Positions 302 to 32,271 of a stretch of 32,932 bases of DNA are shown here, one piece after another. Source of the stretch: Desulfuromonas sp. TF (GTDB lineage Bacteria > Desulfobacterota > Desulfuromonadia > Desulfuromonadales > ATBO01). The notes beneath the pieces were generated by a model, which made no database searches, was not told the DNA's origin, and worked only from the letters and a program-made list of their open reading frames with translations. Location: positions 1 to 32,932 of the forward strand of contig NZ_KI421419.1 of NCBI RefSeq assembly GCF_000472285.1, written 5' to 3'. How positions within the stretch are numbered: the stretch's first letter is position 1; each line of letters opens with the position of its first letter. The translations under genes were made by a program, and so were the position numbers.

Positions 302-1645
302 ATGGCCTGGAATAAAGAAGAAGAGTTCAATCGCAGTGAAATGCGGGACCTTCAGCTCGCGCGCCTGCAGAAAACCGTCAATTACGTTTATGAGAAAAAT
401 CCATATTACAAAAAAAGCCTCGACTCGATCGGAGTTAAGCCGAGTCATATAAAGTCCCTGGAGGATATCCGGATACTTCCTTTCACCACAAAGCAGGACA
501 TCCGGGACAACTACCCCTTCAGCCTCTTCACCGCCTCCCAGGAGGATATCCTCGAGTACCATGCCACCTCAGGCACGACCGGAAAGCCGGTGGTGGTCGG
601 CTACACACGGAACGATCTCGACAACTGGTCCGAAGTCGTGGGGCGGGCTTTTACCGGCGCCGGCATTTCCAAAAACGATGTGGTGCAGAACATCTACGGC
701 TATGGCCTGTTCACCGGCGGACTGGGAGCCCATTACGGGGCCATCCGGGTCGGCGCGTCGGTCATCCCGATCTCCGGCGGCAACACCCAGAAGCAGATCA
801 TGCTGATGCAGGACTTCGGCAGCACCGCCCTGACTTCCACCCCCTCCTTCCTCATGCATATCTTCGAGGTCGGAGATCAGATGGGGGTGGACTTCAAGAA
901 GCTCAAACTCCGCACAGGCGTGCTCGGCGCCGAGCCCTGGAGCGAATCGATGCGCCATTCGATCCAGGATAAGTTCGGCATCAAGGCCTGCGACATTTAC
1001 GGTCTCTCCGAAATCATCGGACCGGGCGTCTCCTTCGAGTGCCGCGAGGCCCAGGACGGCCTGCATATCAACGAAGACTACTTCTACCCCGAGATCATCA
1101 ACCCGGATACGGGCGAAGTGCTTCCCGAAGGAGAGATGGGGGAGCTGGTCTTTACCACCATTACCAACGAAGGCCAGCCGCTGCTGCGCTATCGCACCCG
1201 GGACATCACCCGGCTGACCCGCGAAACCTGCGCCTGCGGGCGCACGCTGGTCAAGATGCAGAGGGTCTGCGGCCGCAGCGACGACATGCTCATTATCCGC
1301 GGCGTCAACGTCTTTCCCTCCCAGATCGAAACGATCATCCTCAAGCGCCAGGGGGTTTCACCCCATTACATGATCGTGGTCAGCCGCAACGGCAGCATGG
1401 ATGAACTTGAGATCAAGGTCGAAGTGACCGAGGATTTCATGGCCAAGGCCGCCGCCGACGTCCTCAAGGGATGCGAGCACGAGCTGCTCGACGACGTGGA
1501 GGCGGTAAGAAGTAAAGTCAATAATCTCAAACGGGATATCAAGGATATCGTCGGCGTCTCCGTAAAGATCACCCTGGTTCCGCCTGGAACGATTCCGCGA
1601 AGCGAAGGCAAGGCCAAGCGGATCGATGACAGGCGGCCCAAATAA
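302..1645 (+). CDS. paaK: phenylacetate-CoA ligase
   Basis: A 447-residue ANL-superfamily ligase of the PaaK type, which activates phenylacetate or a related aryl-acetate to its CoA thioester with ATP in the cytoplasm. The visible signature is the P-loop SGTTGKPVVVGYT at about residues 90-102, a YGLSEIIGPGVSFEC segment, the hinge region YRTRDITRLT followed by a CACGRT cysteine pair, and GRSDDMLIIRGVNVFPSQIE near residue 330. These are typical of PaaK and its IorAB-linked homologues. The start ATG has an AGAGGTGA ribosome site just upstream, and the length is normal. It lies directly upstream of iorAB; in many anaerobes this pairing lets aryl-pyruvate oxidation and aryl-acetate activation share a pathway. 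The exact aryl substrate (phenyl-, hydroxyphenyl- or indole-acetate) is inference. Confidence 0.93.
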   Translation: MAWNKEEEFNRSEMRDLQLARLQKTVNYVYEKNPYYKKSLDSIGVKPSHIKSLEDIRILPFTTKQDIRDNYPFSLFTASQEDILEYHATSGTTGKPVVVGYTRNDLDNWSEVVGRAFTGAGISKNDVVQNIYGYGLFTGGLGAHYGAIRVGASVIPISGGNTQKQIMLMQDFGSTALTSTPSFLMHIFEVGDQMGVDFKKLKLRTGVLGAEPWSESMRHSIQDKFGIKACDIYGLSEIIGPGVSFECREAQDGLHINEDYFYPEIINPDTGEVLPEGEMGELVFTTITNEGQPLLRYRTRDITRLTRETCACGRTLVKMQRVCGRSDDMLIIRGVNVFPSQIETIILKRQGVSPHYMIVVSRNGSMDELEIKVEVTEDFMAKAAADVLKGCEHELLDDVEAVRSKVNNLKRDIKDIVGVSVKITLVPPGTIPRSEGKAKRIDDRRPK

Positions 1646-1671: not shown

Positions 1672-3501
1672 ATGAAAAAGAGCAATTCCGCTAAAGAGGC
1701 AACGGCCTTGAACTTCTCTGATTCCGGAAGAAAATCGGAAGAAGCCCGGCCCTTGACGAAGCAGATCATTTCCGGCAACGAGGCTATCGCCCTGGGCTTC
1801 GGCGATTCCGGGGGGGTCTTCGCCTCCGGTTATCCCGGAACGCCCAGTACCGAAACCCTGGAAGAGGTGGCCCGCCTCGGCGAGGTCTACTGCGAGTGGG
1901 CCCCCAACGAGAAGGTCGCCCTGGAGTCGGCCATCGGAGCTTCAATAGCCGGCGGCAGGGCCTTGTCCACCATGAAGCACGTCGGGGTCAATGTGGCCGC
2001 CGATCCGCTGTTGACCCTCAATCACACCGGCGTCAATGCCGGCCTGATTCTCATGGTGTCGGACGATCCGGGGATGCACTCCTCCCAGAACGAGCAGGAC
2101 AGCCGCAACTACGCCAAATTCGCCAAGATCCCGATGCTCGACCCGGCAAACTCCCAGGAAGCCTACGACTTCGTCCGGGCCGGCTTCGAGATCTCCGAGC
2201 AGTTCGACGCCCCGGTGATGCTGCGCACCACCACCCGCATCTCCCATGCCAAGGGACTGGTCCAGCCGAAGGAGAAGATCGAGCCGAAGATCGGCGAATG
2301 GGTCAAGGACGTGCCCAAATACGTCATGCTCCCCAATTTTGCCCGGATCAAGCATCCCCAGATCGAAGAGCGCCTCCTGAAGCTTCAGGAGTTCGCAGAA
2401 ACCTCGGAGCTCAACCGGATCGAGATGGGCGACAAGGATCTCGGCATCATCACCTCCGGCATTTCGTATCAGCACGTCAAGGAGGCCTTTCCCAACGCTT
2501 CGGTGCTGAAGCTGGGCCTGGTTCACCCCCTGCCCCCTAAGAAAATCAAAGAGTTCGCCGGGAGCGTCAAGCGCCTCATGGTGGTTGAGGAACTCGATGC
2601 TATTTTCGAAGAACAGATCCGGGCCATGGGGATTCGGGTCGATATCGGCAAGAACAAAATTTCCTACTGCGGCGAGGTCAATGCTGAAATCATCCGGGCC
2701 GCCGCCGGCGAGTCCGTGAGTGCAAAGGCCATGGCTCCGGTCGAGAAGCTGCCCGCACGCCCACCCGTCTTCTGCTCAGGCTGTGCTCACCGAGGCCTTT
2801 TCACCATTCTGGCCAAGCTCAAGACCTTCGTCTCGGGCGACATCGGGTGCTATACCCTCGGCGCCCTGCCGCCGATGAATGCCATGCATTCGGTGATCGA
2901 CATGGGGGCCAGCATCAGCGCCGCCCACGGCATGGCCAAGGTCAACGCCATCGCCGGCAGAGAGGAGAAGCCGGTGGCGGTCATCGGCGATTCCACCTTC
3001 TTCCATTCGGGGATGACCGGGTTGCTGAGCATGGCCTACAACGGCGGCAATGCCCTGGTCATCATCATGGACAACCGCACCACAGGCATGACCGGCGGGC
3101 AGGAAAACCCCGGCTCCGGCCAGACCCTGCAGGGCACTCCGGCCAAGCAGGTCGAGATCGCCCCGCTGGTCAGGGCCCTGGGGATCGAAAACGTCGCCGA
3201 GCTCAACACCTATGACCTAAAGGAAACTGAGGCAATCATCAAAAAAGGGCTCGAAACCCCCGGCCCCTACGTCCTGATCGACAAGAACCCCTGCATCCTC
3301 CGCTACCGGATCAAGAAGCCCGCACTGACCGTCGATCCAGACAAGTGCACCGGCTGCCGCGCCTGCCTCAAGGTGGGGTGCATGGCCCTGGGCCTGACCG
3401 CCTCCGGCGACAAACCGAAGGTTCGGATCGACCCCAATGTCTGCAACGGGTGCGGTATCTGTAAACAGACGTGCAAATTCGACGCGATGTCCGAGGTCTA
3501 A
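1672..3501 (+). CDS. iorA: indolepyruvate:ferredoxin oxidoreductase, alpha subunit
   Basis: The 609-residue large subunit of an aryl-pyruvate:ferredoxin oxidoreductase, which decarboxylates indole-, phenyl- or hydroxyphenyl-pyruvate to the aryl-acetyl-CoA and reduces ferredoxin. The N-terminal pyrimidine-binding domain carries GYPGTPSTE. The thiamine diphosphate domain has the GDS...N motif at about residues 439-467. A C-terminal ferredoxin domain holds two cysteine sets, C559/C562/C565/C570 and C591/C594/C597/C601, for two 4Fe-4S clusters. The first ~30 residues (low-complexity, Ser/Lys/Glu rich) precede the conserved domain and look like an extension; a start further in cannot be excluded, but AGAGGG lies upstream of the chosen ATG. 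iorB follows after 11 bases, so the two are translated together. Confidence 0.94.
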   Translation: MKKSNSAKEATALNFSDSGRKSEEARPLTKQIISGNEAIALGFGDSGGVFASGYPGTPSTETLEEVARLGEVYCEWAPNEKVALESAIGASIAGGRALSTMKHVGVNVAADPLLTLNHTGVNAGLILMVSDDPGMHSSQNEQDSRNYAKFAKIPMLDPANSQEAYDFVRAGFEISEQFDAPVMLRTTTRISHAKGLVQPKEKIEPKIGEWVKDVPKYVMLPNFARIKHPQIEERLLKLQEFAETSELNRIEMGDKDLGIITSGISYQHVKEAFPNASVLKLGLVHPLPPKKIKEFAGSVKRLMVVEELDAIFEEQIRAMGIRVDIGKNKISYCGEVNAEIIRAAAGESVSAKAMAPVEKLPARPPVFCSGCAHRGLFTILAKLKTFVSGDIGCYTLGALPPMNAMHSVIDMGASISAAHGMAKVNAIAGREEKPVAVIGDSTFFHSGMTGLLSMAYNGGNALVIIMDNRTTGMTGGQENPGSGQTLQGTPAKQVEIAPLVRALGIENVAELNTYDLKETEAIIKKGLETPGPYVLIDKNPCILRYRIKKPALTVDPDKCTGCRACLKVGCMALGLTASGDKPKVRIDPNVCNGCGICKQTCKFDAMSEV

Positions 3502-3512
3502 AGGAGGAGTCT

Positions 3513-4088
3513 ATGGAAACTCTCAATATCGTAATCGCCGGCGTCGGCGGCCAGGGGGTTCTGATGGCCTCCAAGGTACTCGCCGAATGCGCCCTGGTCA
3601 GCGGGCTGGATGTCAAGCAGAACGAAGTTCACGGGATGGCTCAGCGGGGCGGCAGCGTCATCAGCTTCGTCCGCATCGGCGACCGGATTTACTCCCCGGT
3701 GGTCCTGCCGGGAACGGCCGACATCCTGATCTCCTTCGAACCCCTCGAGGCCCTGAGGTATGTCCACTACCTCAAGCCCGGCGGCAGGCTGATTTACAGC
3801 AAGGTCACCATCAACCCCAGCACCGTGGCGGCGGGCCTGGCCGTCTACCCCACCGATGTCGAGGAGCAGATCGCCCGCCTATGCGGCAATGCCCATGGGA
3901 TCGAGGCTCTTTCCATCGCCAAGGAGGCCGGCAACGCCAAGGCCGTCAACATGGTCATGGTCGGCTCGGTGATGAAGAATCTGCCCTTCAAACCGGAGGT
4001 CATCAAGGACGTGGTCAGGGAGGTCTCCAAGGGAAAGGGGGCCGACGTCAACCTGAAGGCACTCGAAGGCGGCGCTGCCGCTGCCTAA
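3513..4088 (+). CDS. iorB: indolepyruvate:ferredoxin oxidoreductase, beta subunit
   Basis: The 191-residue small subunit of the IorAB enzyme. It corresponds to the gamma-type domain of 2-oxoacid:ferredoxin oxidoreductases, with the glycine-rich GVGGQG at residues 10-15 and NEVHGMAQRGGSV near 40-52, the conserved strip of this family. I chose the ATG at 3513 because AAAGGAGG sits 5 bases before it; an in-frame opening further upstream overlaps iorA and has no conserved residues. The length fits the family (about 190-200). It functions only with IorA, which carries the thiamine diphosphate and the iron-sulfur clusters. An inverted repeat lies immediately after the stop codon. Confidence 0.93.
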   Translation: METLNIVIAGVGGQGVLMASKVLAECALVSGLDVKQNEVHGMAQRGGSVISFVRIGDRIYSPVVLPGTADILISFEPLEALRYVHYLKPGGRLIYSKVTINPSTVAAGLAVYPTDVEEQIARLCGNAHGIEALSIAKEAGNAKAVNMVMVGSVMKNLPFKPEVIKDVVREVSKGKGADVNLKALEGGAAAA

Positions 4089-4092
4089 CTCC

Positions 4093-4142: not shown

Positions 4143-4170
4143 GTCTCACCTGTTTCGAAGGGAGGTTTCC

Positions 4171-4623
4171 ATGAAGCTGAAGCAACTCTCCATTTTTCTC
4201 GAAAATGCCCCCGGCCGCCTTTTCGAAACGACCGAGGCCCTCGGAGAGGCGGGCCTCAATTTGAGATCGCTCTGCATCTGCGACAGCTCCCACGACTTCG
4301 GTGTACTGCGGATTCTCGTCTCCGATGTGGCGACGGCACGCCGGGTGATCATGCAGAAGCAACTTCCGGCCCGGGTCGACGAGGTCGTCGCGGCCGAGAT
4401 CGAAGACACGCCCGGCAGCCTGGCCAGGGCCCTCAAGTCCTTCCAGGGAACCAAGGTCAATGTCGAGTACATGTACGCACTGGCCGGAACGGGAATCTCC
4501 TCAGGCAAAGCGGTGATGGTCTTCCGTTTCAGCGACAATGATCGGGCCATCGAGATCCTCCAGGACGCCGGCGTCAAGCTTCTCGATGCCGAGGCCTTCG
4601 GGATCCTCGAAAATCCGAGTTAG
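4171..4623 (+). CDS. tandem ACT-domain protein, copy 1
   Basis: A 150-residue protein made of two ACT domains: one starting at the N-terminus with LSIFLENAPGRL and one from about residue 75 with EDTPGSLARALK. ACT domains bind amino acids and act as small-molecule sensors. Stand-alone double-ACT proteins are often encoded beside paaK/iorAB, so a role in sensing aromatic amino acids or aryl acids for this operon is plausible but inferred. The ATG at 4171 follows GGGAGG and matches the start of the second copy (5701), where the first 17 residues are identical. By hand count the two copies are roughly three quarters identical. No DNA-binding or catalytic domain is present. Confidence 0.88.
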   Translation: MKLKQLSIFLENAPGRLFETTEALGEAGLNLRSLCICDSSHDFGVLRILVSDVATARRVIMQKQLPARVDEVVAAEIEDTPGSLARALKSFQGTKVNVEYMYALAGTGISSGKAVMVFRFSDNDRAIEILQDAGVKLLDAEAFGILENPS

Positions 4624-4630
4624 TTTCTGT

Positions 4631-4673
4631 CCGGAAACTCGTCAGTGTACATTCGGAGTTTCCGGATGTACAC
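4631..4673. repeat. Nested inverted repeats between ACT copy 1 and KPR copy 1
   Basis: A 10-bp perfect inverted repeat (ccggaaactc at 4631-4640, gagtttccgg at 4656-4665) is interleaved with a second pair, gtgtac at 4645-4650 and gtacac at 4668-4673. The two stems are mutually exclusive or pseudoknot-like. The gtttccgg/ccggaaac ends resemble the termini of the elements at 8697-8838, so it may be a shortened member of that family. No T-run follows. Confidence 0.55.
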
Positions 4674-4719
4674 GAGCTAGATCTACACTGTCAGACCCCT
4701 AGTCCAAGGAGTGCGCGAT

Positions 4720-5661
4720 ATGAAAGGTGAAAGCAGCTTCCAGCCGAAAAAATTCGCGGTCATCGGTGCCGGTCCCGTCGGCGGGATCGTCGCGGCCTTT
4801 CTCGCCAAGGGCGGTTACGATGTCACACTCTGCGACGTGATTCCGAGCCTTCTCGAGCCAGCCCTTGATCCCGGAATCCTCATAGAAGGGACCGACCACT
4901 TCCAGGCCAGGGTGACCAGAACAACCACCAACGTCGATGACCTTGCCGATGACCCGCCCGATGTGGTGGTTGTCACCGTCAAGGCCACCGCCCTGCCCCT
5001 GATCGCCTCGGCCCTTGAGAACATCGTCACCGAGGGGCGTTACGTCGTGAGCTGGCAGAACGGCATCGACACCGAACTGGTCCTGGCGGAGCAGCTCGGC
5101 TCCAGAGCGGTCATGCGGGCGGTTGTCAACTTCGGATGCACCCTGGTGAAGCCCGGGCGCATCCACATGTCCTTCCATCATCGTCCCCACTTCCTCCAGG
5201 AGCTCGACCCCGCTTCCAGGGACGCGGCCGTCGGCATCTGCAACGCCCTGACCGAGTGCGGCCTCGATACCCGTCATACCGACCAGATTGCCGACATGGT
5301 CTGGCGCAAGGCGGTTCTGAACTCCTGCATGAATCCCATCTGCGCCGTCACCGGCAAGACCATGGCCGAGGCCATCAGCGATCCGATCATCTTCAACCTG
5401 GTCGACTCTCTCATCAAAGAAGGGGTCGCCGTGGCTCGCGCCAATGAATTTTCCCTCGGCTCGAACTTTTACCCCTATGGCATCAATTACCTGAAAAACG
5501 CAGGGCACCACAAACCCTCCATGCTCCAGGACATCGAGGCGAAGCGGCGGACCGAAGTCGACTACATCAACGGGAAAATCGTCGAATACGGTGCTCAGGC
5601 CGGCATGCCCACCCCCTTCAACACCATGATACGAGGTCTGGTCAAGGCGCTCGAGCCCTGA
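4720..5661 (+). CDS. ketopantoate reductase (PanE/ApbA)-family dehydrogenase, copy 1
   Basis: A 313-residue NAD(P)-dependent dehydrogenase of the 2-dehydropantoate 2-reductase family. The N-terminal Rossmann fold shows GAGPVGG at residues 16-22. The C-terminal helical domain has the catalytic-type pair K197 and N201 (WRKAVLNS) and the family's KPSMLQDIEAKRRTEVDYIN segment near residue 265. I prefer the ATG at 4720, 9 bases after AAGGA, over a GTG at 4711 that abuts the ribosome site. The family reduces 2-oxo acids such as ketopantoate, or oxidises the reverse. Two near-copies inside an aromatic/amino-acid operon argue against pantothenate synthesis as the main role; an aryl 2-oxo/2-hydroxy acid substrate is a reasonable inference. 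Confidence 0.85.
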   Translation: MKGESSFQPKKFAVIGAGPVGGIVAAFLAKGGYDVTLCDVIPSLLEPALDPGILIEGTDHFQARVTRTTTNVDDLADDPPDVVVVTVKATALPLIASALENIVTEGRYVVSWQNGIDTELVLAEQLGSRAVMRAVVNFGCTLVKPGRIHMSFHHRPHFLQELDPASRDAAVGICNALTECGLDTRHTDQIADMVWRKAVLNSCMNPICAVTGKTMAEAISDPIIFNLVDSLIKEGVAVARANEFSLGSNFYPYGINYLKNAGHHKPSMLQDIEAKRRTEVDYINGKIVEYGAQAGMPTPFNTMIRGLVKALEP

Positions 5662-5700
5662 TGCGCAATAGGTCCCCTCTGTCCAGCAAGGGAGATATCA

Positions 5701-6153
5701 ATGAAGCTCAAACAATTATCCATCTTTCTCGAAAACGCCCCCGGCCGCCTGTACGAGGTCACCAAGGCTTTCGGCGATCTCGGCATCAACCTGAGGGCGC
5801 ATGTCATCTGCGATACTACCCATGACTTCGGCGTCCTGCGGATTCTGGTCTCCGATCTCGCAACCGCCCGCGGGATGATCATGGACAAGTACATTCCCGC
5901 ACGGGTCGACGAGGTAGTCGCTACCGAGCTAGAAGATACCCCGGGCAGCCTGGCGGAAGTCCTCAAACTGTTCCTGGGATCCAAGGTCAATGTCGAATAC
6001 ATGTATGCGGTAGCCGGGGGCAAACTGGGAAAAGCCGTAATGATCTTTCGCTTCAGCGACAATGACAAGGCCATCGAGATCCTGCACGCCAACAACGTCA
6101 AGGTTCTCGATGCCGAGGCCTTCGGCATGGTCGAAAGCCAGCCCTCCGAATAA
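5701..6153 (+). CDS. tandem ACT-domain protein, copy 2
   Basis: A 150-residue paralogue of the protein at 4171, with the same two ACT domains (LSIFLENAPGRL at the start, EDTPGSLAEVLK from about residue 78). Long identical runs include HDFGVLRILVSD and KVNVEYMYA. Differences concentrate in the first domain around residues 18-40, the region that normally forms the ligand-binding loop and helix, so the two copies may sense different ligands. The ATG is preceded by GGGAGA at about 5 bases. It follows KPR copy 1 by 39 bases and precedes KPR copy 2 by 11, so it belongs to the second unit of a tandem duplication. Confidence 0.88.
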   Translation: MKLKQLSIFLENAPGRLYEVTKAFGDLGINLRAHVICDTTHDFGVLRILVSDLATARGMIMDKYIPARVDEVVATELEDTPGSLAEVLKLFLGSKVNVEYMYAVAGGKLGKAVMIFRFSDNDKAIEILHANNVKVLDAEAFGMVESQPSE

Positions 6154-6164
6154 GGATTTTTTCT

Positions 6165-7109
6165 ATGACCAGAGAAAGCAACTACCGACCGAAGAGGTTC
6201 GCGGTCATCGGCGCAGGCCCCGTGGGCGGGATCGTCGCCGCCTTTCTGGCCAGGGGCGGCTATGAAGTCACGCTCTGCGACGTCGTCCCCGCCCTTCTCG
6301 AACCGGCCCTCGATCCCGGCATCATCCTGGAGGGGACCGACAACTTCCAGGCACGGGTCGCCAGGGTGACCACCCGGGTGGACGACCTCTGCACCGCCCC
6401 CCCCGACGTGGTCATCATCGCCGTCAAGGCGACGGCCCTGCCCATCATCACCTCCGCCCTTGAAAATTTCGTCGGCGAAGGACGTTACGTCGTCAGCTGG
6501 CAGAACGGCATCGACACCGAACGGGTCCTCTCCCAGTACCTCGGATCGAAACCGGTCATGCGCGCGGTCGTCAATTTCGGCAGCGTGCCGGTGAGCCCCG
6601 GTCACATACGCCTGGCATTCCACCACCGCCCCCACTACATCCAGGAGCTTCATCCGGAGTCCCGGGACGCCGCCGTCGGCATCAGCAACGTTTTCACCGA
6701 ATGCGGGCTCGACACCCTGCATACCGACCAGATTCGTAACATGGTGTGGACCAAGGCGGTCAACAACTCGTGCATGAATCCGGTCTGCGCCGTCACCGGC
6801 AAGACCATGGCCGAGGTCATCAACGATCCCATCCTCTTCAACCTGGTCGACAATCTGCTCAAGGAGGGGGTTGCCGTAGCCCGGGCCAACGAACTCAGCC
6901 TCGGTCCCGACTTCTACCCCGACTGCATCGACTACATCCAGACCGCCGGACAGCACAAACCCTCCATGCTTCAGGATATCGAAGCGGGCCGCTCCACCGA
7001 AGTCGACTACATCAACGGCAAAATCATCGAGTATGCCGCCCGGGCGGGGATGGCCGCGCCGTACAACACGGCCCTTCGCAGCCTGGTGAAGGCCCTCGAG
7101 CCCAAATAA
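6165..7109 (+). CDS. ketopantoate reductase (PanE/ApbA)-family dehydrogenase, copy 2
   Basis: A 314-residue paralogue of the enzyme at 4720, colinear without obvious gaps: GAGPVGG at residues 16-22, K197 and N201 in WTKAVNNS, and the KPSMLQDIEAGRSTEVDYIN segment. Both copies therefore keep the family's cofactor and catalytic residues, which argues that neither is decaying. Differences cluster in stretches such as GCTLVKPGRIHMS versus GSVPVSPGHIRLA near residues 140-152, which may alter substrate preference. The ATG is 11 bases after the ACT copy 2 stop, with AAGGA upstream, indicating tight co-translation. The physiological 2-oxo acid is unknown. Confidence 0.85.
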   Translation: MTRESNYRPKRFAVIGAGPVGGIVAAFLARGGYEVTLCDVVPALLEPALDPGIILEGTDNFQARVARVTTRVDDLCTAPPDVVIIAVKATALPIITSALENFVGEGRYVVSWQNGIDTERVLSQYLGSKPVMRAVVNFGSVPVSPGHIRLAFHHRPHYIQELHPESRDAAVGISNVFTECGLDTLHTDQIRNMVWTKAVNNSCMNPVCAVTGKTMAEVINDPILFNLVDNLLKEGVAVARANELSLGPDFYPDCIDYIQTAGQHKPSMLQDIEAGRSTEVDYINGKIIEYAARAGMAAPYNTALRSLVKALEPK

Positions 7110-7120
7110 TCAGAGTGATT

Positions 7121-7319: not shown

Positions 7320-8693
7320 ATGAATTCACAGGACGTGTTGCAGGCCGGTGCAGCCGCGCCGACGATGACCGCCAAGCAGGGAGGCGACTGGCGCGCCCTT
7401 TATCAATCCCGCGTCACCACGGCCGAGGAAGCGATCAAGGCGATCGAGTCCGGGAACCGGGTGTTTCTCACAGGGAATGCTTCGGTCCCCCTTCAGCTTC
7501 TGGACGCATTGGTAAAGAGCGCTCCCGAGCTCCGGAACGTGGAAATCTGCCATCCGCTGGTCATCTGCCCCGCGGACTATGTGGCTCCTGAGATGGAGGG
7601 TCACCTGCGGGTCAACTCCATGTTCATCAGCGCCAACGTCCGCAAGGCCGTCAACGAAGGGCGGGCGGATTTCACGCCGGTCATGCTCTCCGAATTCCCC
7701 CTGCTGTTCAAGAACGGGATCCTCCCCCTCGATGTGGCCCTGATCCATGTTTCCCCTCCGGACGAGGAAGGCTACTGCTCCATGGGCGCCGAATCGGGAC
7801 TCACCATCTCGGCCGCGGAAGTGGCCAAAATCGTCATCGCGCAGGTCAACCAGCAGATGCCCCGCACCCTGGGGGACACCCGGATGCACATCTCCCGCAT
7901 GCACCACATCGTGCCCCTGGACACCCCGATCAGCGAGCACGCCATGGGCGCCGAGGCCGACAACGCCATCGTCGAGGGGATCGCGGGCCACATCGCCGGG
8001 CTGATCCCCGACGGCGCCACCATGCAGCTGGGGATCGGCGGCATTCCCGACGCCGTTCTCAAGTACCTCTACGGCAAGAAGGACCTGGGGGTCCATTCGG
8101 AGCTGATCTCCGACGGGGTCATCGACCTGGTGGAGGCGGGGGTCCTGAACGGTTCGCGAAAGAGCATCCACAAGGGAAAGATCGTCTGCGGCTTCCTCCT
8201 GGGGACCAAACGCCTCTATGAATGGGTGAACAACAATCCCCTGGTCGAACTCCACCGCACCGAGTACGTCAACGACCCCTTCGTTGTGGCGCAGAACGAG
8301 CGCATGGTCGCCATCAACTCGGCGATCGAGGTCGACCTCACGGGCCAGGTCTGCGCCGACAGCATCGGCCCCAAGTTTCATTCGGCCGTGGGCGGACAGC
8401 TCGATTTCATTTACGGCGCATCCCGTTCCAAGGGAGGTGTGCCGATCATCGCCCTGCCGAGCACCTCACAGCTGAGGGACGGAACGGTGGTAAGTAAAAT
8501 CGTTCCGATGCTGAAGCCTGGCGCAGGCGTAGTCACCAGCCGCAATCATGTCCATTTCGTCGTGACGGAGCACGGCGTGGCGGAGCTGTACGGCCGATCG
8601 GTCCGCCAGCGAACCCAGGCGCTCATCAACATTGCGCATCCCGACTTCCGCGCCGAAATCACCGAGAAGGCAAAGGAGCTGCATTACATCTAG
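7320..8693 (+). CDS. 4-hydroxybutyrate/acetyl-CoA-type CoA-transferase
   Basis: A 457-residue member of the acetyl-CoA hydrolase/transferase family, closest in motifs to 4-hydroxybutyrate CoA-transferase. It moves CoA between acyl-CoAs and free acids through a glutamyl-CoA intermediate. The likely catalytic glutamate is E261 in VHSELISDG, just after the CoA-binding GIGGIPDAV loop near residue 239. Conserved FIYGASRSKGG (about 362) and VVTEHGVAELYGR (about 415) complete the family pattern. The ATG at 7320 has AAAGGAAGGA 5 bases upstream; about 20 residues extend beyond the usual family start, and Met16 is an alternative. In this operon it could save ATP by exchanging CoA between acetyl- or aryl-CoA and the pathway acid. 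The donor and acceptor are not predictable from sequence. Confidence 0.88.
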   Translation: MNSQDVLQAGAAAPTMTAKQGGDWRALYQSRVTTAEEAIKAIESGNRVFLTGNASVPLQLLDALVKSAPELRNVEICHPLVICPADYVAPEMEGHLRVNSMFISANVRKAVNEGRADFTPVMLSEFPLLFKNGILPLDVALIHVSPPDEEGYCSMGAESGLTISAAEVAKIVIAQVNQQMPRTLGDTRMHISRMHHIVPLDTPISEHAMGAEADNAIVEGIAGHIAGLIPDGATMQLGIGGIPDAVLKYLYGKKDLGVHSELISDGVIDLVEAGVLNGSRKSIHKGKIVCGFLLGTKRLYEWVNNNPLVELHRTEYVNDPFVVAQNERMVAINSAIEVDLTGQVCADSIGPKFHSAVGGQLDFIYGASRSKGGVPIIALPSTSQLRDGTVVSKIVPMLKPGAGVVTSRNHVHFVVTEHGVAELYGRSVRQRTQALINIAHPDFRAEITEKAKELHYI

Positions 8694-8696
8694 CCA

Positions 8697-8838
8697 GTTT
8701 CCGGGCCGGAAACGAGGGATTTTTCGTCGTGGCAAGGAAATCAAGGGATTGCACGGAGGCGTACATCGGTACGCCGCACAAGCAAGCCCGCAGATTGAAG
8801 CCGCCATGGCGAAAAAGAACCGTTTCCGGACGGAAACT
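8697..8838. repeat. Intergenic element R1 with inverted ends (full-length form)
   Basis: A 142-base element fills the gap between the CoA-transferase and the FAD subunit. Each end is itself a small palindrome (agtttccgg..ccggaaac at 8697-8714; gtttccgg..cggaaact at 8822-8838), and the outer ~38 bases of both sides are imperfect inverted repeats of each other. The core has another hairpin, ggcgtac/gtacgcc (8758-8775). It is clearly related to element R2 at 14971-15051: 23 of 25 bases match on the left (8708-8732) and 32 of 35 on the right (8794-8828). The next gene's ribosome site lies just beyond it. Confidence 0.8.
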
Positions 8839-8851
8839 AAGGAGTGAACAG

Positions 8852-9745
8852 ATGCACGGCGAACCTTTCGGGTACGAAAAGCCCACCTCCCTGAGGGAAT
8901 TCGAATCCCTTTTCGCGGCCAGGGCCGACGAGGCGAAGATCCTGGCCGGGGGAACGGACCTCCTCGTCCTGATCAAGGAGAAGCTCCTGGCCCCCAGGCT
9001 GCTGATCGACATCTCGGATCTTCCCGAGCTGCGGGACATCCGGTTCGACCCGAACCAGGGACTCACCATCATGGCAGGGACCAAGATCGCGGAAATAGAG
9101 CGCAGCGAACTGGTCAGACGGCACGCCCCTGCCCTGGCCTTTGCCGCCTCCAACCTCGGCTCCACCCAGGTGCGGTGGATGGCGACTCTGGCCGGCAACG
9201 TCTGCCACGCCTCCCCTGCGGCGGAAACATCCCCGGTTCTGCTGGCCCACGACTGCGAATTGGTCCTCGGCAGAAAGGGGGGTGAGCGGACCCTGCCGAT
9301 CAGCGGGTTTTTTCTCTCCTACCGCAAGACGGCTCTCCTGCCGGGGGAATATGTCAAGGCCTTTCGTCTGCCTCCTCTGCCCCCCCGGGCGGCCGTGGCC
9401 TACCAGCTCAAAGGGCTCAGGAGAGCCATGGAGATCGACATGCTCAACCTGGGGGCCTACCTCGAGCTCGAGCCGGACGGCGATACGGTCAAAGAGGTCC
9501 GGCTCGCCATGGGATCGATGGGCCCGACCACCTTCCGGGGGACGGACACCGAGCAGCAGCTCAAGGGGATGCGACTGGGGGAGGAATTCATCGCCGCAGC
9601 CTGCGCCGGAGTGGCCCGGGAGGCCAAGCCGATCGACGACGTACGGGCTTCGGCCGAGTATCGGACCCGGGTGATCGGTGTTCTGACGCGAAGGGCTCTC
9701 GAAGAATGCCTGGACCGCATCAAGGGGGAGGAGATCCGAGCGTGA
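8852..9745 (+). CDS. xanthine dehydrogenase-family hydroxylase, FAD-binding subunit
   Basis: A 297-residue medium subunit (CoxM/XdhB/HcrB type) that passes electrons between the 2Fe-2S subunit and an external carrier through FAD. The FAD-binding strips LAGGTDLLVLIK (about residues 31-42) and TLAGNVCHASPAAETSPVL (about 112-130) are clear. A longer reading from 8729 runs through the R1 repeat, so I set the start at ATG 8852, 8 bases after TAAGGAG. The extra ~40-residue 4Fe-4S loop that marks the beta subunit of 4-hydroxybenzoyl-CoA reductase is absent: the sequence runs straight from the second FAD motif into ELVLGRKGG. This makes a hydroxylase/dehydrogenase as likely as a reductase. It overlaps the next gene at GTGA. 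Confidence 0.88.
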   Translation: MHGEPFGYEKPTSLREFESLFAARADEAKILAGGTDLLVLIKEKLLAPRLLIDISDLPELRDIRFDPNQGLTIMAGTKIAEIERSELVRRHAPALAFAASNLGSTQVRWMATLAGNVCHASPAAETSPVLLAHDCELVLGRKGGERTLPISGFFLSYRKTALLPGEYVKAFRLPPLPPRAAVAYQLKGLRRAMEIDMLNLGAYLELEPDGDTVKEVRLAMGSMGPTTFRGTDTEQQLKGMRLGEEFIAAACAGVAREAKPIDDVRASAEYRTRVIGVLTRRALEECLDRIKGEEIRA

Positions 9746-10227
9746 AAAAGCTGGTTCAACTGGAGATCAATGGAGAAATTTTCGATGTGGCGGTTTCTCC
9801 CACCGCCTATCTGGTCGAGGTGATCCGGGAAACGGTCGGCCTGACCGGGACCAAGAAGGGGTGCGGCATCGGCGACTGCGGGGCCTGCACCGTCCTTATC
9901 GACGGCAAGCCGACCCTGTCGTGCCTCACGCTGGCCATCGCCTGTCAGGGCAAGGCGATCACCACCATCGAGGGGCTGAGCCAGGGGGCCGGACTCCATC
10001 CGGTGCAGAAGGCGTTCATCGACAAAGGAGCCGTCCAGTGCGGCTTCTGCACCCCGGGGATGGTTCTCTCTTCCAAGGCGCTGCTCGACGAGAACTCCAC
10101 TCCGACGGAAGATGAAATCAAGTCGGCACTGGCCGGAAACCTTTGCCGCTGTACCGGTTACGCCAAAATCATCGAGGCGGTCGGTTACGCGGGGAAGCTT
10201 CTGAAGGGGGAGGTCGGAGATGAGTAA
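9742..10227 (+). CDS. xanthine dehydrogenase-family hydroxylase, 2Fe-2S subunit
   Basis: A 161-residue small subunit (CoxS/XdhC/HcrC type) carrying two 2Fe-2S clusters. The plant-ferredoxin-type set is C41, C46, C49 and C61 (GCGIGDCGACT ... LSC), and the second, helical-domain set is C100, C103, C135 and C137 (QCGFCTPGM ... CRCTGY). All eight ligands are present. Translation starts at GTG 9742, overlapping the previous stop, with GGGGGAGGAG about 10 bases upstream. The 161-residue length fits the family. It links the Mo subunit to the FAD subunit, and its stop lies 8 bases inside the Mo-subunit gene, so the three subunits are translationally coupled. Confidence 0.93.
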   Translation: MKKLVQLEINGEIFDVAVSPTAYLVEVIRETVGLTGTKKGCGIGDCGACTVLIDGKPTLSCLTLAIACQGKAITTIEGLSQGAGLHPVQKAFIDKGAVQCGFCTPGMVLSSKALLDENSTPTEDEIKSALAGNLCRCTGYAKIIEAVGYAGKLLKGEVGDE

Positions 10228-12526
10228 GCACGATTTTGCAGTCATAGGCAAGGGGGTCAAGCGCAAGGACGGTCCCAAGAAGGTCAAGGGAGAGCACGAG
10301 TTCGCCGACGACATTCAGTTTCCCCTGATGCTCCACGGCCGGATCAAACGCTCCGACATCGCCCACGGACGGATCGTGAAAATAGACACCTCCAGAGCCG
10401 AGGCGCTCGCCGGGGTCAAGGCGGTCCTGGTGGGGGCCGAAGCGCCCATCAAGTACGGCATCGTTCCCCAGGTACCGACCGAATACGCCCTCGCCCATCA
10501 AAAGGTGCGCTTCCACGGCGAACCGGTGGCGGCGGTGGCGGCGGTCGATGCGGAAACGGCGGAAAAGGCCCTCGACCTGATCGAGATCGAATACGAGCCC
10601 CTCCCCGCCTACACCACGCCCGAAGAAGCCATGGCTGAAGGTGCGACAAAAATCCACGAAGACAACCGCTTCCCCGGGAACATCGCCTACCAGGCGGACC
10701 AGAACTTTGGCGATGTGGACGAGGCTCTGCGCAATTCGCACTACGTTCTCGAGAAGACCTTCCGGACCAGCTACGTCAACCATGTCTTCATGGAGCCGCA
10801 CTGCGCCGTGTCCAAATTCGACACCAACGGCGAACTCTTCATCTGGTCCACCACCCAGGTCCCGCACTATCTGCACCGGACCCTCTCGAAGGTCCTCGAG
10901 ATGGAGATGAACCAGATCCATGTCAAGGTTACGGGGGTCGGAGGCGGCTTCGGCGGCAAGGGGGAGACCTCCAACAACGAGTTGATCTCCGCCCTGCTCG
11001 CCCGCAAGGCGGGACGCCCGGTGAAGGTCGCCTACTCCCGCAAAGAGGTCTTCCTCCAGCACCGGGGGCGCCACCCCATCGAGATGAAGCTGAAGGTGGG
11101 CGTCGACGAGGAGGGGAGGATTACGGCCATCGATTACGACGGCATCATGGACGGCGGCGCCTACGGCGGATGGGGGCTCGTCATCCTCTTCTACACCGCG
11201 GCCATGCTTCACCTGCCCTACGATGTCAAGAATGTGCGCTTCAATGCTCGCCGGATCTATACCAACAAGCCGACCTGCGGCGCCATGCGCGGGCTGGGCG
11301 GCGTTCAGCCCCGCTTTGCCCTGGAGAGCCTGCTCGACCAGATCGCCGTCGACATCGGCATGAACCCCTACGACCTCAAGAAGAAAAACGCCATCGGGCT
11401 GAAACACACCACGGTCAGCGGCCAGCAGGTGCGGCACAGCGAGTTCCGCAAGTGCCTCGACCAGGCGGTTGAACTTTCCGGGTACAAGGAGAAACACGGC
11501 AAGCTCCCCTTCGGCAAGGGGATCGGCCTGGCCGGCGGATACTATATCTCGGGAACAGCCTATACCCTGTATATGGCCTACAAGCCGCACTCCTCGGCCA
11601 TGATCCGGGTCGATACCGAAGCCGGAGTGACGGTCTACTGCGGGGCCACCGACATCGGACAGGGGTCCGATACGGTTCTCGGCATGATGGCCGCCGAAAA
11701 GTTCGGTCTTCCTTTCGAGTCGATTCATGTGGTCAGCGGAGATACCTCCCTGGCCCCCTTCGATCTGGGGACGTTTGCCAGCCGGGTCACGGTGGCCGCC
11801 GGCAGCGCAGTCTGCAAGGCCGCCGACAACATCCTGGCGAAGGTCATGCCCGTGGCGGCCATCCAGCTCGGAGTGCGCCCCGAACAGCTCGAGGCCCGCG
11901 GAGGAAAGATCTACTCCGTCTACGAGCCGGCAAAGCAGATCGAGTTCTGGAAGGTGATCGAGAAATACATCGACGCCCACGGCCCCTTGACCGCTACCGG
12001 CGACTACACGCCGCCGCGCCGGACAGGGGATTTCAAGGGAGCCAATATCGGCCATAGCCCCACCTACGGATTCTCGGCCCAATGCACCGAGGTCGATGTC
12101 GATATCGAGACGGGAGAAATCCGGGTCGTGCGGGTAACCGAGGCTGGCGACTGCGGCCAACCGATCAACCCCGTCGCTGTCGAGGGGCAGGTCGAAGGCT
12201 CCATCATGATGGGGATGGGACAGGCTCTTTTCGAGGAACTCAAGGTCGGCAAGGACGGCAGACTGCTCAATCCTTCCCTGCACGACTACAAGATTCCCAC
12301 CACGGCGGATCTCCCCGAGCTGAAGACAACCTTCGTCGAGAGCTACGATCCTGAAAGCCCCTTCGGCGCCAAGGAGGCCGGCGAGGGACCGATTCAGCCC
12401 GTGATCCCGGCGATTTTCAATGCGGTCTACGACGCCATCGGCGTGCGCTTCACCGAAATGCCGATCACTCCCGAGAAGGTCCTCAAGGCTCTCGATGAGA
12501 AGAAAAAACAGGAGGAAAACAACTGA
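10220..12526 (+). CDS. xanthine dehydrogenase-family hydroxylase, molybdopterin-binding subunit
   Basis: The 768-residue catalytic subunit with the molybdenum cofactor, close in size to the 4-hydroxybenzoyl-CoA reductase alpha subunit. Seen in order: the a/b hammerhead domain (residues ~15-125), GGGFGGKGE (~239-247), the cofactor strip CGAMRGLGGVQPRFALES (~353-370), GATDIGQGSDTVLG (~475), EAGDCGQPINPVAVEGQVEG (~643-662) and the base-catalyst region AKEAGEGP, where E722 aligns with the active-site glutamate of the family. It would hydroxylate, or reductively dehydroxylate, a ring or acyl-CoA substrate. The missing 4Fe-4S loop in the partner FAD subunit leaves the direction open. A benzoyl-CoA-type substrate is suggested only by neighbours. 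Confidence 0.9.
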   Translation: MSKHDFAVIGKGVKRKDGPKKVKGEHEFADDIQFPLMLHGRIKRSDIAHGRIVKIDTSRAEALAGVKAVLVGAEAPIKYGIVPQVPTEYALAHQKVRFHGEPVAAVAAVDAETAEKALDLIEIEYEPLPAYTTPEEAMAEGATKIHEDNRFPGNIAYQADQNFGDVDEALRNSHYVLEKTFRTSYVNHVFMEPHCAVSKFDTNGELFIWSTTQVPHYLHRTLSKVLEMEMNQIHVKVTGVGGGFGGKGETSNNELISALLARKAGRPVKVAYSRKEVFLQHRGRHPIEMKLKVGVDEEGRITAIDYDGIMDGGAYGGWGLVILFYTAAMLHLPYDVKNVRFNARRIYTNKPTCGAMRGLGGVQPRFALESLLDQIAVDIGMNPYDLKKKNAIGLKHTTVSGQQVRHSEFRKCLDQAVELSGYKEKHGKLPFGKGIGLAGGYYISGTAYTLYMAYKPHSSAMIRVDTEAGVTVYCGATDIGQGSDTVLGMMAAEKFGLPFESIHVVSGDTSLAPFDLGTFASRVTVAAGSAVCKAADNILAKVMPVAAIQLGVRPEQLEARGGKIYSVYEPAKQIEFWKVIEKYIDAHGPLTATGDYTPPRRTGDFKGANIGHSPTYGFSAQCTEVDVDIETGEIRVVRVTEAGDCGQPINPVAVEGQVEGSIMMGMGQALFEELKVGKDGRLLNPSLHDYKIPTTADLPELKTTFVESYDPESPFGAKEAGEGPIQPVIPAIFNAVYDAIGVRFTEMPITPEKVLKALDEKKKQEENN

Positions 12527-14970: not shown

Positions 14971-15051
14971 CCTTTGTCGGATTGGAAACGAGGAATTCTT
15001 CGTCGTGGGAGGATTGACGCAGCCATGGCGGAAAAGAACCGTTTCCGAAAG
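14971..15051. repeat. Intergenic element R2 (shortened form of R1)
   Basis: An 81-base relative of the element at 8697-8838. The left block (14984-15008) and right block (15013-15047) match R1 at 23/25 and 32/35 bases, but only 4 bases lie between them, against 61 in R1: a net loss of 57 bases that removes the central hairpin. The ends (cctttgtcgg / ccgaaagg) again form an inverted repeat. As with R1, it occupies the whole gap and is followed at once by the next gene's start, and the AAGGA ribosome site lies in its right end. Confidence 0.78.
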
Positions 15052-15060
15052 GATAAACCT

Positions 15061-17033: not shown

Positions 17034-18065
17034 ATGAAAGTCAAGTTTTTTGGCCGTTCCATTTTGACGCTTCTGATTGTTGCGCTGGCTTGCGGCACAG
17101 CCTTCGCTGCCGACCCCCTCGAAAATTTCAAGCCAAAATTTGATCCCAGCTCCGCCGAGTACACCTATCTTCTTTCCAACATTTCCCATCCGGCGATTGC
17201 GGGCGTTGCCAACGGGTACCACATTCGCGACAAGGTCTGGGAGCGCAGCAACGGACGTCTCTTCGTGGATTACCGTCCCCTGGCCCAGCTCGGCGGTGAA
17301 AAAGACGTGATCAGCAAACTGAAACTGGGAGCCGTCCAGGGGATGCTCTGTTCTTCCGTGGCCGCCGCCAACGTCGCCCCCCAGCTGGGGGTCGTCAACT
17401 TACCCTTTGTCGTCGATTCCTTCGACAAACTGGAGAAGTTCCGCAATAACGAGAAACTTTTCGGCGAGTTCCGCAAGAGCGCCCTGCCCCAGGGAATCAT
17501 GGTCGCCGACATCGTCAATTACGGAACTTACGGCTGGGCCACCACTGTCCCGGTCAGTTCCGTCAAAGAGGCCGCCAACGTGAATTTCCGCATCGCAGAG
17601 GCACCGGTCAATGCCGACATCTACAAGGCCTGGGGCCTTAAGTTTACCGTCATGCCCTGGCCCGATGTTCCTCAGGCCCTGCAGACTGGCGTCATTGACG
17701 GCCTCGACCACACCGCCATCGTCTGCAATCTCACCAAGAAGTTCGAGATCGCCAAGAACTTCACCGAAGTCAACTACGCTCAGGGACTCTTCATTCATCT
17801 CATCAACAAGAGCTGGTTCGACAAACTCCCCGCCGACCTGCAGAAGATCCTGATGGAGGTCATTGAGGAGGAGAGCACCAAAACCCGTCAGGCGACCCGC
17901 GAACAACAGGATGCCCAGATCGCAGCCGCCAAAGCCAATGGCGTCAAATTCTTCCCGCTCTCTCCTGAGGACAAGCAGGCGCTTATCCAGAAAACCGGCC
18001 CGGTTTATGAGAAGTGGGGCGAGCGAATCGGCAAGGACTATCTCAATGAGATGCGCTCTCTTTAA
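17034..18065 (+). CDS. TRAP-type transporter periplasmic substrate-binding protein (DctP family)
   Basis: A 343-residue exported protein. The first ~25 residues are a signal peptide (KFF...hydrophobic core...AFA/ADP). The mature part shows DctP-family features: GRLFVDYRPLAQLGGEKDVISKLKLGAVQG (in two parts, ~70-100), a conserved arginine strip in NVNFRIAEAPVNADIYKAWG (~185-204), and TGVIDGLDHT (~220). TRAP binding proteins capture organic acids, including aromatic ones, for a DctQ/DctM permease. No such permease gene is adjacent: the gene is followed directly by a terminator and then by a kinase/regulator pair. It may work with a permease elsewhere or present ligand to the sensor kinase. The ATG has AAAGGAG 7 bases upstream. 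Confidence 0.9.
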   Translation: MKVKFFGRSILTLLIVALACGTAFAADPLENFKPKFDPSSAEYTYLLSNISHPAIAGVANGYHIRDKVWERSNGRLFVDYRPLAQLGGEKDVISKLKLGAVQGMLCSSVAAANVAPQLGVVNLPFVVDSFDKLEKFRNNEKLFGEFRKSALPQGIMVADIVNYGTYGWATTVPVSSVKEAANVNFRIAEAPVNADIYKAWGLKFTVMPWPDVPQALQTGVIDGLDHTAIVCNLTKKFEIAKNFTEVNYAQGLFIHLINKSWFDKLPADLQKILMEVIEEESTKTRQATREQQDAQIAAAKANGVKFFPLSPEDKQALIQKTGPVYEKWGERIGKDYLNEMRSL

Positions 18066-32182: not shown

Positions 32183-32271
32183 AGTTTTGACATTGAGGGC
32201 AAGAGAGCAAAGGGAGTTCAATCCGAAAACGGGACAGAGAACGCCGTCAACAATCAGCAGGAGAGGTGATC

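Follow-up and report, generated by a model that had tools for sequence, protein, structure and literature searches.

The window, that is, the whole stretch of 32,932 nucleotides of Desulfuromonas sp. TF that was analysed, contains near its start the genes of a PaaK-type arylacetate-CoA ligase (302..1645; TIGR02155, 570 bits, below the cut-off of 646), of IorA, the alpha subunit of indolepyruvate:ferredoxin oxidoreductase (1672..3501; TIGR03336, 658 bits, above the cut-off of 651), and of the beta subunit IorB (3516..4088; Pfam POR; NF005325, 224 bits, slightly below the cut-off of 230). Downstream of iorA and iorB lie two gene pairs, each encoding a double ACT domain protein of 150 residues and, as its partner, a putative NAD(P)-dependent 2-oxoacid reductase of the ketopantoate reductase (KPR) family. 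ACT1 (4171..4623; residues S33/L34) precedes KPR1 (4720..5661; R196/L200), for which a GTG at 4711 is a possible alternative start, and ACT2 (5701..6153; A33/H34 in strand 2) precedes KPR2 (6165..7109; T196/N200); the models of ACT2 and KPR2 have pLDDT values of 89.8 and 91.5, respectively. Both copies of the tandem module described in the initial annotation are thus present, at 4171-5661 and 5701-7109.

All of these genes are located on the + strand, as are those that follow: a CoA-transferase (CAT) of the butyryl-CoA:acetate CoA-transferase type (7320..8693; Pfam AcetylCoA_hydro/_C; TIGR03948, 328 bits, below the cut-off), a molybdenum hydroxylase of three subunits (8729..12526; Pfam), the large one being nearest to 4-hydroxybenzoyl-CoA reductase (TIGR03194, 845 bits, below the cut-off of 995), an acyl-CoA dehydrogenase (13210..14970; Pfam), an AMP-forming acyl-CoA synthetase (14974..16929; NF009232, 873 bits) and the TRAP transporter binding protein DctP (17034..18065; Pfam DctP). 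The acyl-CoA dehydrogenase and DctP are 74% and 61% identical to their counterparts in a dehydratase cluster on contig C12. The 5' end of a KPR-linked tungsten aldehyde:ferredoxin oxidoreductase (AOR) gene (32266..32931; Pfam AFOR_N) runs past the window; it shares 70.7% identity with the AOR portion of a KPR-AOR fusion at locus L041, and the remainder is found in L091. Transporters of the branched-chain-amino-acid and TRAP types are encoded near the two pairs. Promoter and terminator scans gave no excess over shuffled sequence.

The ACT copies, which had been estimated to be about three quarters identical, match at 109 of 148 aligned residues (73.6%), including the first 17, and the KPR copies at 234 of 313 (74.8%). 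This similarity is well above chance and confirms that the duplication is real. NG86 estimates of Ka were 0.18 (ACT) and 0.16 (KPR), and Ks was about 0.85 for both (0.87 and 0.83, respectively). A search of the host genome yielded four further KPR matches of 25-47% identity, three of them partial and none close to the KPRs of the window. One match, on contig C15, lies in an open frame of 528 residues; a fusion protein was considered and rejected, as the frame is mere open sequence upstream of a KPR of 25-32% identity.

To place the copies among their relatives, we used the best 80 of 191 relatives, corresponding to 78 loci. The careful KPR tree comprised 79 of 110 rows, with three divergent KPR rows omitted and ten of 38 rows from other lineages as outgroup, while the ACT tree came from a quick search. 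Among these best 80 relatives, KPR2 forms a clade of 29 rows (support 100/99) and ACT2 likewise a clade of 29 rows (SH-aLRT 99), and both clades are drawn from identical loci (29/29) of Geobacteraceae and other Desulfuromonadales. A sister relationship of the two window KPRs was rejected (p-AU 0.00107). In the free tree, the window KPR1 falls outside both clades (96/94), although a KPR1 clade that includes it was not rejected (p-AU 0.0585); moreover, an ACT1 row is absent for 5 of the 40 KPR1 loci, at one of which, L031, ACT1 is cut by the contig end. Both observations count against the interpretation proposed below. The KPR and ACT trees, the AU test and the matching locus sets support separate, conserved clades for the two copies. 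Therefore, the recent strain-specific duplication that the initial annotation had named as fatal to its proposal did not occur, being ruled out by the trees and the AU test. ACT1-KPR1 thus diverged from ACT2-KPR2 long ago, and within each unit the two genes have been co-inherited.

The two units differ at defined positions. Residue 34 of the ACT protein is His in 29/29 ACT2 and Leu in 35/35 ACT1 sequences from the best 80 of 191 relatives. In the same sample, residue 200 of the reductase is Asn in all 29 KPR2 sequences and Leu or Met in all 40 KPR1 and all ten outgroup rows, and residue 196 is split likewise, with Ser or Thr in KPR2 and Arg in KPR1 and the outgroup. Asn200 of KPR2, replaced by Leu or Met in KPR1, adjoins the catalytic Lys197 and Asn201, and the alignment shows that GAGPVGG, K197 and N201 are retained in both copies. 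Retention of the catalytic residues, with paralogue-specific residues next to them, agrees with the earlier suggestion of specialisation rather than decay. Both ACT proteins match the Pfam family ACT_8 ('ACT domain pair') over their whole length (76 bits for ACT1 and 84 for ACT2, gathering score 23.5). The only PDB sequence above 14 bits was the double ACT protein 2f06 (80 bits), which we take to be BT0572 and from which the window proteins differ by their pairing with a KPR. A third ACT_8 protein of the host genome adjoins a PaaK without a KPR. Each ACT protein presumably acts as an amino-acid sensor that would control its own KPR.

Both reductases exceed the gathering scores of Pfam ApbA and ApbA_C and have the KPR fold. 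They share this fold (Z 31.0, 23% identity to 2ofp) and the catalytic set with E. coli PanE, in that N114, K197, N201, S267 and E279 align with Asn98, Lys176, Asn180, Ser244 and Glu256. However, Asp39, which ends strand 2, adjoins the site that corresponds to PanE Arg31. This residue is invariant in 20/20 rows of one KPR alignment, and an Asp is also found in 3wfi. Such an acidic residue would select NAD, and both KPRs are probably NAD-dependent. A second difference from PanE concerns Asn194 and Asn241, whose equivalents are Met215 and His264 in 29/29 KPR2 and 38/40 KPR1 sequences from the best 80 of 191 relatives. According to passages of PMC10127515, which rest on a model with an analogue, these two Asn residues bind the substrate 4-OH group. 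Because both are absent and the NAD-type Asp is present, the KPRs are probably not PanE, though the catalytic residues for 2-oxoacids are kept. The loss of the 4-OH-binding residues likewise makes a role other than pantothenate synthesis, as put forward in the initial annotation, likely.

Around the KPR genes of the best 80 of 191 relatives, PaaK or IorAB is found at 51 of 78 loci (PaaK at 42, IorA at 46), in line with the expected proximity to paaK and iorAB; CAT occurs at 24 of the 78, there upstream of paaK or iorA. Among other lineages in this sample, a gene for the activase of 2-hydroxyacyl-CoA dehydratase comes after the KPR gene (the next mapped gene on the same strand, less than 400 bases away) at 30/34 loci. 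Altogether, PaaK/IorAB or activase/dehydratase genes occur at 65 of the 78 loci. The other 13 have neither within the available sequence, which is short in some cases; this counts against our interpretation. An AOR gene is present at 23 loci of the best 80 relatives, including L052, where the AOR has just 26% identity. The initial annotation had drawn no links to 2-hydroxyacyl-CoA dehydratase, tungsten AOR or the benzoyl-CoA pathway.

The activase (c8) has Cys131 and Cys170 in 33/33 sequences and the dehydratase (c9) Cys94, Cys134 and Cys362 in 32/32 from the best 80 of 191 relatives. All are kept in the host genome, those of c9 align with Cys residues of HadB, and we take them to be cluster residues, two in the activase and three in the dehydratase as in Fld/Had-type systems. 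The c9 protein matched HadB (2-hydroxyisocaproyl-CoA dehydratase alpha; 228 and 177 bits, far below the cut-off of 750), and assignment as a double-cubane reductase (DCCP, 77 bits) was discarded. Known HadA-I-BC and FldABC-I sets for reductive amino-acid degradation comprise a 2-hydroxyacid dehydrogenase, CoA-transferase, activase, 2-hydroxyacyl-CoA dehydratase and acyl-CoA dehydrogenase. The same kinds of genes are found here, but with a KPR-fold dehydrogenase, a single dehydratase subunit, additional beta-oxidation genes and genomes that carry the benzoyl-CoA pathway. Known 2-hydroxyacyl-CoA dehydratases have two dehydratase subunits, whereas 38 of the 39 loci having a dehydratase-like frame (best 80 of 191 relatives) have one; the extra frame at L049 is on the opposite strand next to a second activase. 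In the host genome, a single run on a different contig from the KPRs holds the genes of the activase, dehydratase, ligase, thiolase, a hydratase-like protein, 3-hydroxyacyl-CoA dehydrogenase and acyl-CoA dehydrogenase; the remaining HGD-D genes of this genome are a pair on contig C10 that resembles class I BCR. Both the single subunit and the separate contig count against our interpretation.

In the host's order, a KPR was found in 22 of 136 genomes. Of these, 22 encode the dehydratase, 21 an IorA of at least 79% identity, 21 the tungsten AOR and 19 the benzoyl-CoA ring hydrolase (raw counts, kinship ignored), and the dehydratase is present in 21/21 ring hydrolase genomes. Three KPR genomes without ring hydrolase (G016, G019, G077) and two dehydratase genomes without KPR (G018, G065) count against our interpretation; G018, G019, G065 and G077 are less than 90% complete, and G016 has a completeness of 91% and a contamination of 7%.

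We propose, with about an even chance of being right, that the KPRs are NAD-dependent aryl-2-oxoacid reductases with their own sensors, feeding a route from arylpyruvate via aryllactyl-CoA and cinnamoyl-CoA to benzoyl-CoA. Each KPR would act as a 2-oxoacid reductase/D-2-hydroxyacid dehydrogenase on aryl-2-oxoacids at the IorAB/PaaK node, such as phenylpyruvate or 4-hydroxyphenylpyruvate. The aryl-2-hydroxyacid would be converted to its CoA ester by a CoA-transferase or ADP-forming ligase, then to arylacryloyl-CoA by the dehydratase with its ATP-driven activase, and finally to benzoyl-CoA and acetyl-CoA via beta-oxidation. Arylacetates could enter through PaaK, followed by IorAB in the carboxylating direction. 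KPR1/ACT1 may serve phenylpyruvate and Phe, and KPR2/ACT2 an aryl group that is hydroxylated or polar in some other way. Where the AOR would fit into this scheme is not evident, which also counts against the scheme. More tentatively, and with considerable doubt on our part, the ACT-KPR pairs could be the committed step of an anaerobic route to benzoyl-CoA, so far without assigned genes, consisting of PaaK activation, IorAB carboxylation with reduced ferredoxin, KPR reduction, a single-subunit dehydratase and beta-oxidation.

It is very improbable that the KPRs serve pantothenate and CoA synthesis as ordinary ketopantoate reductases retained in two copies. Both exceed the cut-off of the apbA_panE subfamily (TIGR00745; 198 and 193 bits, cut-off 141), the single-sequence query placed the archaeal ketopantoate reductase 5hws/5ayv closest, and 5ayv ranked first by structure with the KPR2 model (Z 36.8, tied with others). 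Yet the PanE 4-OH-binding residues are replaced, the two copies are specialised, the gene neighbours at 65 of the 78 loci (best 80 of 191 relatives) and the ACT pairing differ from those of PanE, and occurrence in just 22 of 136 genomes is too patchy for a vitamin pathway. In the single-sequence query D-mandelate dehydrogenase was not closest, which counts against our own reading; the profile query gave 2ew2 and then 3wfi and 3hwr. D-mandelate dehydrogenase (3wfi/3wfj/5x20), presumably from Enterococcus faecium, has the KPR fold and an aryl 2-oxoacid as substrate, was solved with NADH, and shares with the window KPRs the fold (Z 36.4 to the ternary complex 5x20) and the Asp ending strand 2, but is 25% identical. 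The title of a 2008 paper by Wada et al. reportedly includes such dehydrogenases in the KPR family, and we know of no ACT partner or dehydratase operon for them. The KPRs might oxidise mandelate, and the resulting phenylglyoxylate would be converted to benzoyl-CoA by an IorAB-like enzyme in a Pad-like alpha-oxidation. We regard this as quite improbable: IorA passes the indolepyruvate model, IorB reaches only 36 bits on PadE (cut-off 300), PadE exceeded its NCBIfam cut-off in 0/136 genomes of the order, and the downstream activase would be unexplained, because mandelyl-CoA lacks the beta hydrogen that an elimination would remove.

KPR-family enzymes often take branched 2-oxoacids. A fungal 2-ketoisovalerate reductase belongs to the family, according to part of PMC3478992, and the nearby branched-chain-amino-acid-type and TRAP transporters would also fit KPRs with aliphatic or branched 2-oxoacids as substrates for reduction, or with a redox-sink function, unconnected with aromatic side chains. 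Such a role is rather improbable given the arylacetate and arylpyruvate families PaaK and IorA (42 and 46 of the 78 loci, best 80 of 191 relatives) and the co-occurrence with the ring hydrolase. It is also unlikely that the activase/dehydratase-like pair is a reductase, of the class I benzoyl-CoA reductase-like or hydroxybenzoyl-CoA dehydroxylase kind, to which the KPRs are linked merely via shared aromatic islands. While c9 also matches BcrB (149 bits) and MbdO (130 bits) and accompanies every ring hydrolase, it scores higher on HadB, and the KPR-activase adjacency is tight. Furthermore, passages of PMC1924859 indicate that such a catalytic subunit is absent from G. metallireducens, which degrades benzoate; the subunit is therefore unnecessary for the benzoyl-CoA pathway itself, and we rejected c8/c9 as a core part of that pathway.

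The aryl-2-oxoacid route proposed here resembles two published cases. The phenylacetate/phenylpyruvate cluster of Desulfococcus multivorans, as described in parts of PMC5109826, likewise has TRAP transporter, CoA ligase, IorAB, Hbd, hydratase, thiolase and phenyllactate genes and no PadB or PadEFGHI, and the step to benzoyl-CoA is called unclear there; however, its main text contains neither 'pantoate' nor 'ACT domain', and 'dehydratase' once, in the reference list. For the benzene-degrading strain BzS1, sections of PMC13416013 give the same sequence from phenylpyruvate via 2-hydroxy-3-phenylpropanoyl-CoA and cinnamoyl-CoA to benzoyl-CoA, but that route begins with benzene and enolpyruvate, CoA is shown attached before the reduction step, and the paper leaves the dehydratase unassigned and offers its own candidate genes; these sections mention no KPR ('ketopantoate' and '2-dehydropantoate', 0 matches). 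Our literature search, covering sources in part, found no description of ACT-KPR pairing with IorAB/PaaK.

Taken together, the ACT-KPR pairs point to a route, missing until now, by which anaerobic aromatic degraders would convert phenylpyruvate-type compounds to benzoyl-CoA. If the more tentative version is true, it would supply the phenylacetate/phenylpyruvate route that has been missing for strict anaerobes lacking PadB and PadEFGHI, and two enzyme-sensor pairs would work in parallel on two aromatic side chains. The conserved KPR-activase-dehydratase linkage provides concrete candidate genes for such pathway gaps, testable with few purified proteins, and the paralogue pairs, changed in both sensor and enzyme, are a clean example of joint divergence after duplication.

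In the window, paaK (302-1645) heads a plus-strand run that continues with iorA (1672-3501), iorB (3516-4088), ACT1 (4171-4623), KPR1 (4720-5661), ACT2 (5701-6153), KPR2 (6165-7109) and a CoA-transferase gene (7320-8693). The initial annotation had proposed that an ACT-KPR module, i.e., a double-ACT (ACT_8) putative amino-acid sensor and a ketopantoate-reductase-family enzyme, is tandemly duplicated behind iorAB. This duplication is real: the coordinates hold, both pairs lie on the same strand, and 109 of 148 aligned residues are identical between the ACT copies and 234 of 313 between the KPR copies. Since the synonymous divergence between the window copies is 0.83-0.87, the duplication is not recent, and with a Ka of 0.16-0.18 the Ka/Ks of ~0.2 is consistent with purifying selection. 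A perfect 14-nt inverted repeat (4092-4143) was found in the iorB/ACT1 gap and nested 11-13-nt inverted repeats (4630-4673) in the ACT1/KPR1 gap; no terminator-like site was called at either. The KPR2/CoA-transferase gap contains a repeat-like stretch (7108-7240, CACAGAGACACAGAG type) with 16 matches in the genome, itself counted.

A contig scan with KPR2 as the query returned 191 relatives, and the best 80 of these, corresponding to 78 loci, were fetched. The gene maps of these best 80 show the ACT-KPR module in records titled Geobacter, Geobacteraceae, Geotalea, Geopsychrobacter, Geothermobacter and other Desulfuromonadales. Among the same 80, both copies are present in 28 of the 41 loci of the window type, window included, in the order KPR1-KPR2 in 21 and KPR2-KPR1 in 7; KPR1 alone was found in 12 loci and KPR2 alone in 1. 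In L012 (3627-10942) the two pairs are separated by 5.9 kb with transporter-like genes, unlike in the other 27 two-copy loci. Divergent KPR genes (~26% identical) lie near the module at L018:2752 and at L014:6572-7552, the latter between iorB and ACT2. On contig C2 of the window's genome, a third ACT_8 protein adjoins a second PaaK-like gene without a KPR (L093:6123-7974).

In a careful KPR tree of 79 rows, KPR2 forms a clade of 29 rows (support 100/99) and KPR1 one of 39 rows (93/87). The window's KPR1 was placed just outside both clades (96/94), and a KPR1 clade that includes it was not rejected (p-AU 0.0585). A sister relationship of the window's KPR1 and KPR2 was rejected (p-AU 0.00107). 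A quick ACT tree (148 columns, 79 rows) contains an ACT2 clade of 29 rows (SH-aLRT 99), supplied by the identical 29 loci as the KPR2 clade. The separate, conserved clades that the initial annotation had suggested looking for were thus recovered, and both the duplication and the later inheritance involved sensor and enzyme together as one unit. Either the duplication of this unit predates the divergence of these families, or the whole unit was transferred.

Like E. coli PanE, the KPRs keep the residues N114, K197, N201, S267 and E279 that hold the 2-oxoacid head group, and N205 is also shared save in 2 of 40 KPR1 rows. In PanE, a model assigns the substrate 4-hydroxyl to Asn194 and Asn241 (PMC10127515). 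Unlike in PanE, these two positions are Met215 and His264 in 29/29 KPR2, 38/40 KPR1 and 10/10 outgroup rows. Asp39, adjacent to the site that corresponds to PanE Arg31, is invariant in all 20 rows of a KPR alignment and lies at the end of strand 2, where an Asp would favour NAD(H). In a single-sequence search the nearest chains of solved structure were 5hws (121 bits) and 5ayv (119 bits; archaeal ketopantoate reductase), with 2ew2 at 108 bits and 3wfi at 80 bits; a profile search instead gave 142 bits for 2ew2 and 124 bits for 3wfi, a D-mandelate dehydrogenase, as the nearest. By structure comparison, 5ayv (Z 36.8, rmsd 2.4, 296 aligned) is tied with NADH-bound D-mandelate dehydrogenase (5x20; Z 36.4, rmsd 2.3, 301 aligned). 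The sober reading is that the KPRs are probably not PanE but KPR-fold 2-oxoacid reductases for a non-ketopantoate side chain.

Residue 200, beside the catalytic Lys197 and Asn201, is Asn in 29/29 KPR2 rows and Leu or Met in 40/40 KPR1 (window's included) and 10/10 outgroup rows; residue 196 is Ser or Thr in 29/29 KPR2 and Arg in 40/40 KPR1 and 10/10 outgroup rows. Because residues 190-211 form a single helix in the KPR2 model (pLDDT 91.5), residues 197, 200, 201 and 204 should share one face. ACT position 34 is His in 29/29 ACT2 and Leu in 35/35 ACT1, and position 33 is Ala in 29/29 ACT2 and Ser in 34/35 ACT1; both fall in modeled strand 2 (31-38) of the first ACT domain. The exchange of a hydrophobic for a polar residue in enzyme and sensor alike hints, though it is no proof, that the aryl group handled by the second pair is more polar, e.g., that of tyrosine.

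Among the best 80 of 191 relatives, 38 loci belong to other lineages (L046-L084 without L049), in which the mapped gene upstream of KPR is PaaK in 17, ACT in 13 and IorB in 2. A BadF/HgdC-type activase follows KPR in 30 of the 34 such loci with >400 bases downstream (exceptions L067, L069, L070 and L084), as a rule succeeded by a HadB-like 2-hydroxyacyl-CoA dehydratase (Pfam HGD-D) and an ADP-forming acyl-CoA ligase. Taking the 78 loci together, the stretches covered show PaaK or IorAB in 51 of them, an activase or a dehydratase in 49, and at least one of these two sets in 65. The dehydratase-like protein scores 228 bits against NCBIfam HadB (cut-off 750) versus 149 bits against BcrB, and its cysteines 94, 134 and 362, present in 32/32 full-length rows, align with those of HadB; activase cysteines 131 and 170 are kept in 33/33 rows. 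In the window's genome this set lies on contig C12 as one minus-strand run of activase, dehydratase, ADP-forming ligase, thiolase, enoyl-CoA hydratase-like (31% match), 3-hydroxyacyl-CoA dehydrogenase (interrupted by runs of N), acyl-CoA dehydrogenase and DctP genes, the last two 74 and 61% identical to those of the window. Contig C10 carries a four-gene class I benzoyl-CoA-reductase-like set of two HGD-D proteins and two activases (L094:6805-11506) and, apart from it, the ring hydrolase of the benzoyl-CoA pathway.

Within the best 80 of 191 relatives, the mapped gene that follows KPR1 encodes a tungsten aldehyde:ferredoxin oxidoreductase (AOR) in 9 loci, two of which, from Holophagaceae, have it fused in frame to KPR1 (L041 and L042, the latter ending at a contig edge). 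The L041 protein (9992-12913, 973 aa) is a KPR-AOR-MoaD/ThiS fusion, the C-terminal MoaD/ThiS domain being present on complete AOR copies; the right end of the window (32266-32931) holds the start of the same AOR-MoaD protein, unfused. To our knowledge, a MoaD-like domain on a tungsten enzyme is unusual.

Among 136 genomes of the Desulfuromonadales, KPR occurs in 22, patchily within some genera (6/11, 2/10 and 1/2 genomes of g8, g25 and g30). The dehydratase was found in 24 genomes, including 22/22 with KPR; an IorA of ≥79% identity in 24, among them 21/22 (all other matches ≤55%); AOR in 22, including 21/22; and the benzoyl-CoA-pathway ring hydrolase (TIGR03200) in 21 (20 above cut-off and one gene cut short), including 19/22. 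The KPR genomes lacking a partner are G063 (IorA), G070 (AOR) and G016, G019 and G077 (hydrolase). Without KPR, G018 and G065 have dehydratase, IorA and hydrolase, G018 also AOR, and G012 has IorA only. Fisher tests, uncorrected for kinship, gave p = 2e-23 for KPR-dehydratase and 4e-18 for KPR-hydrolase. In G. metallireducens, as far as PMC1924859 describes it, benzoate is degraded with no dehydratase subunit of this kind, so that the link does not simply reflect the benzoyl-CoA pathway itself. PadE, of the phenylglyoxylate dehydrogenase route, was above cut-off in 0/136 genomes.

Beside these observed sequence relations, clades, neighbours and co-occurrences, we infer a route, every catalytic step of it from family membership. 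Arylpyruvate would come from amino acids, or from arylacetate via PaaK together with a carboxylating IorAB; for IOR, this direction has been proposed in the amino-acid synthesis of other anaerobes (PMC13285125). KPR would reduce arylpyruvate to the aryl-2-hydroxyacid, whose activation with CoA and dehydration would give cinnamoyl-CoA or a hydroxylated cinnamoyl-CoA, and β-oxidation would split this into acetyl-CoA and (hydroxy)benzoyl-CoA. The start may also run the other way, from phenyllactate to phenylpyruvate; growth of D. multivorans on phenyllactate is described in PMC5109826. The ACT proteins would set the flux through KPR or IorAB/PaaK according to amino-acid supply. A three-subunit 4-hydroxybenzoyl-CoA-reductase-like enzyme (8729-12526), below the cut-off of the respective model, would fit a tyrosine branch; no relative was found in the related-locus stretches examined (best 80 of 191 relatives), and among these only the window has it.

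The sequence from phenylpyruvate via cinnamoyl-CoA to benzoyl-CoA has been sketched for benzene, without KPR as far as PMC13416013 describes it, and no description of ACT-KPR pairs was found in the open papers searched. Here the parts belong to known families and the overall scheme follows the Had/Fld reductive branch, from which it differs by the KPR-fold dehydrogenase, the paired private sensors and the single dehydratase subunit.
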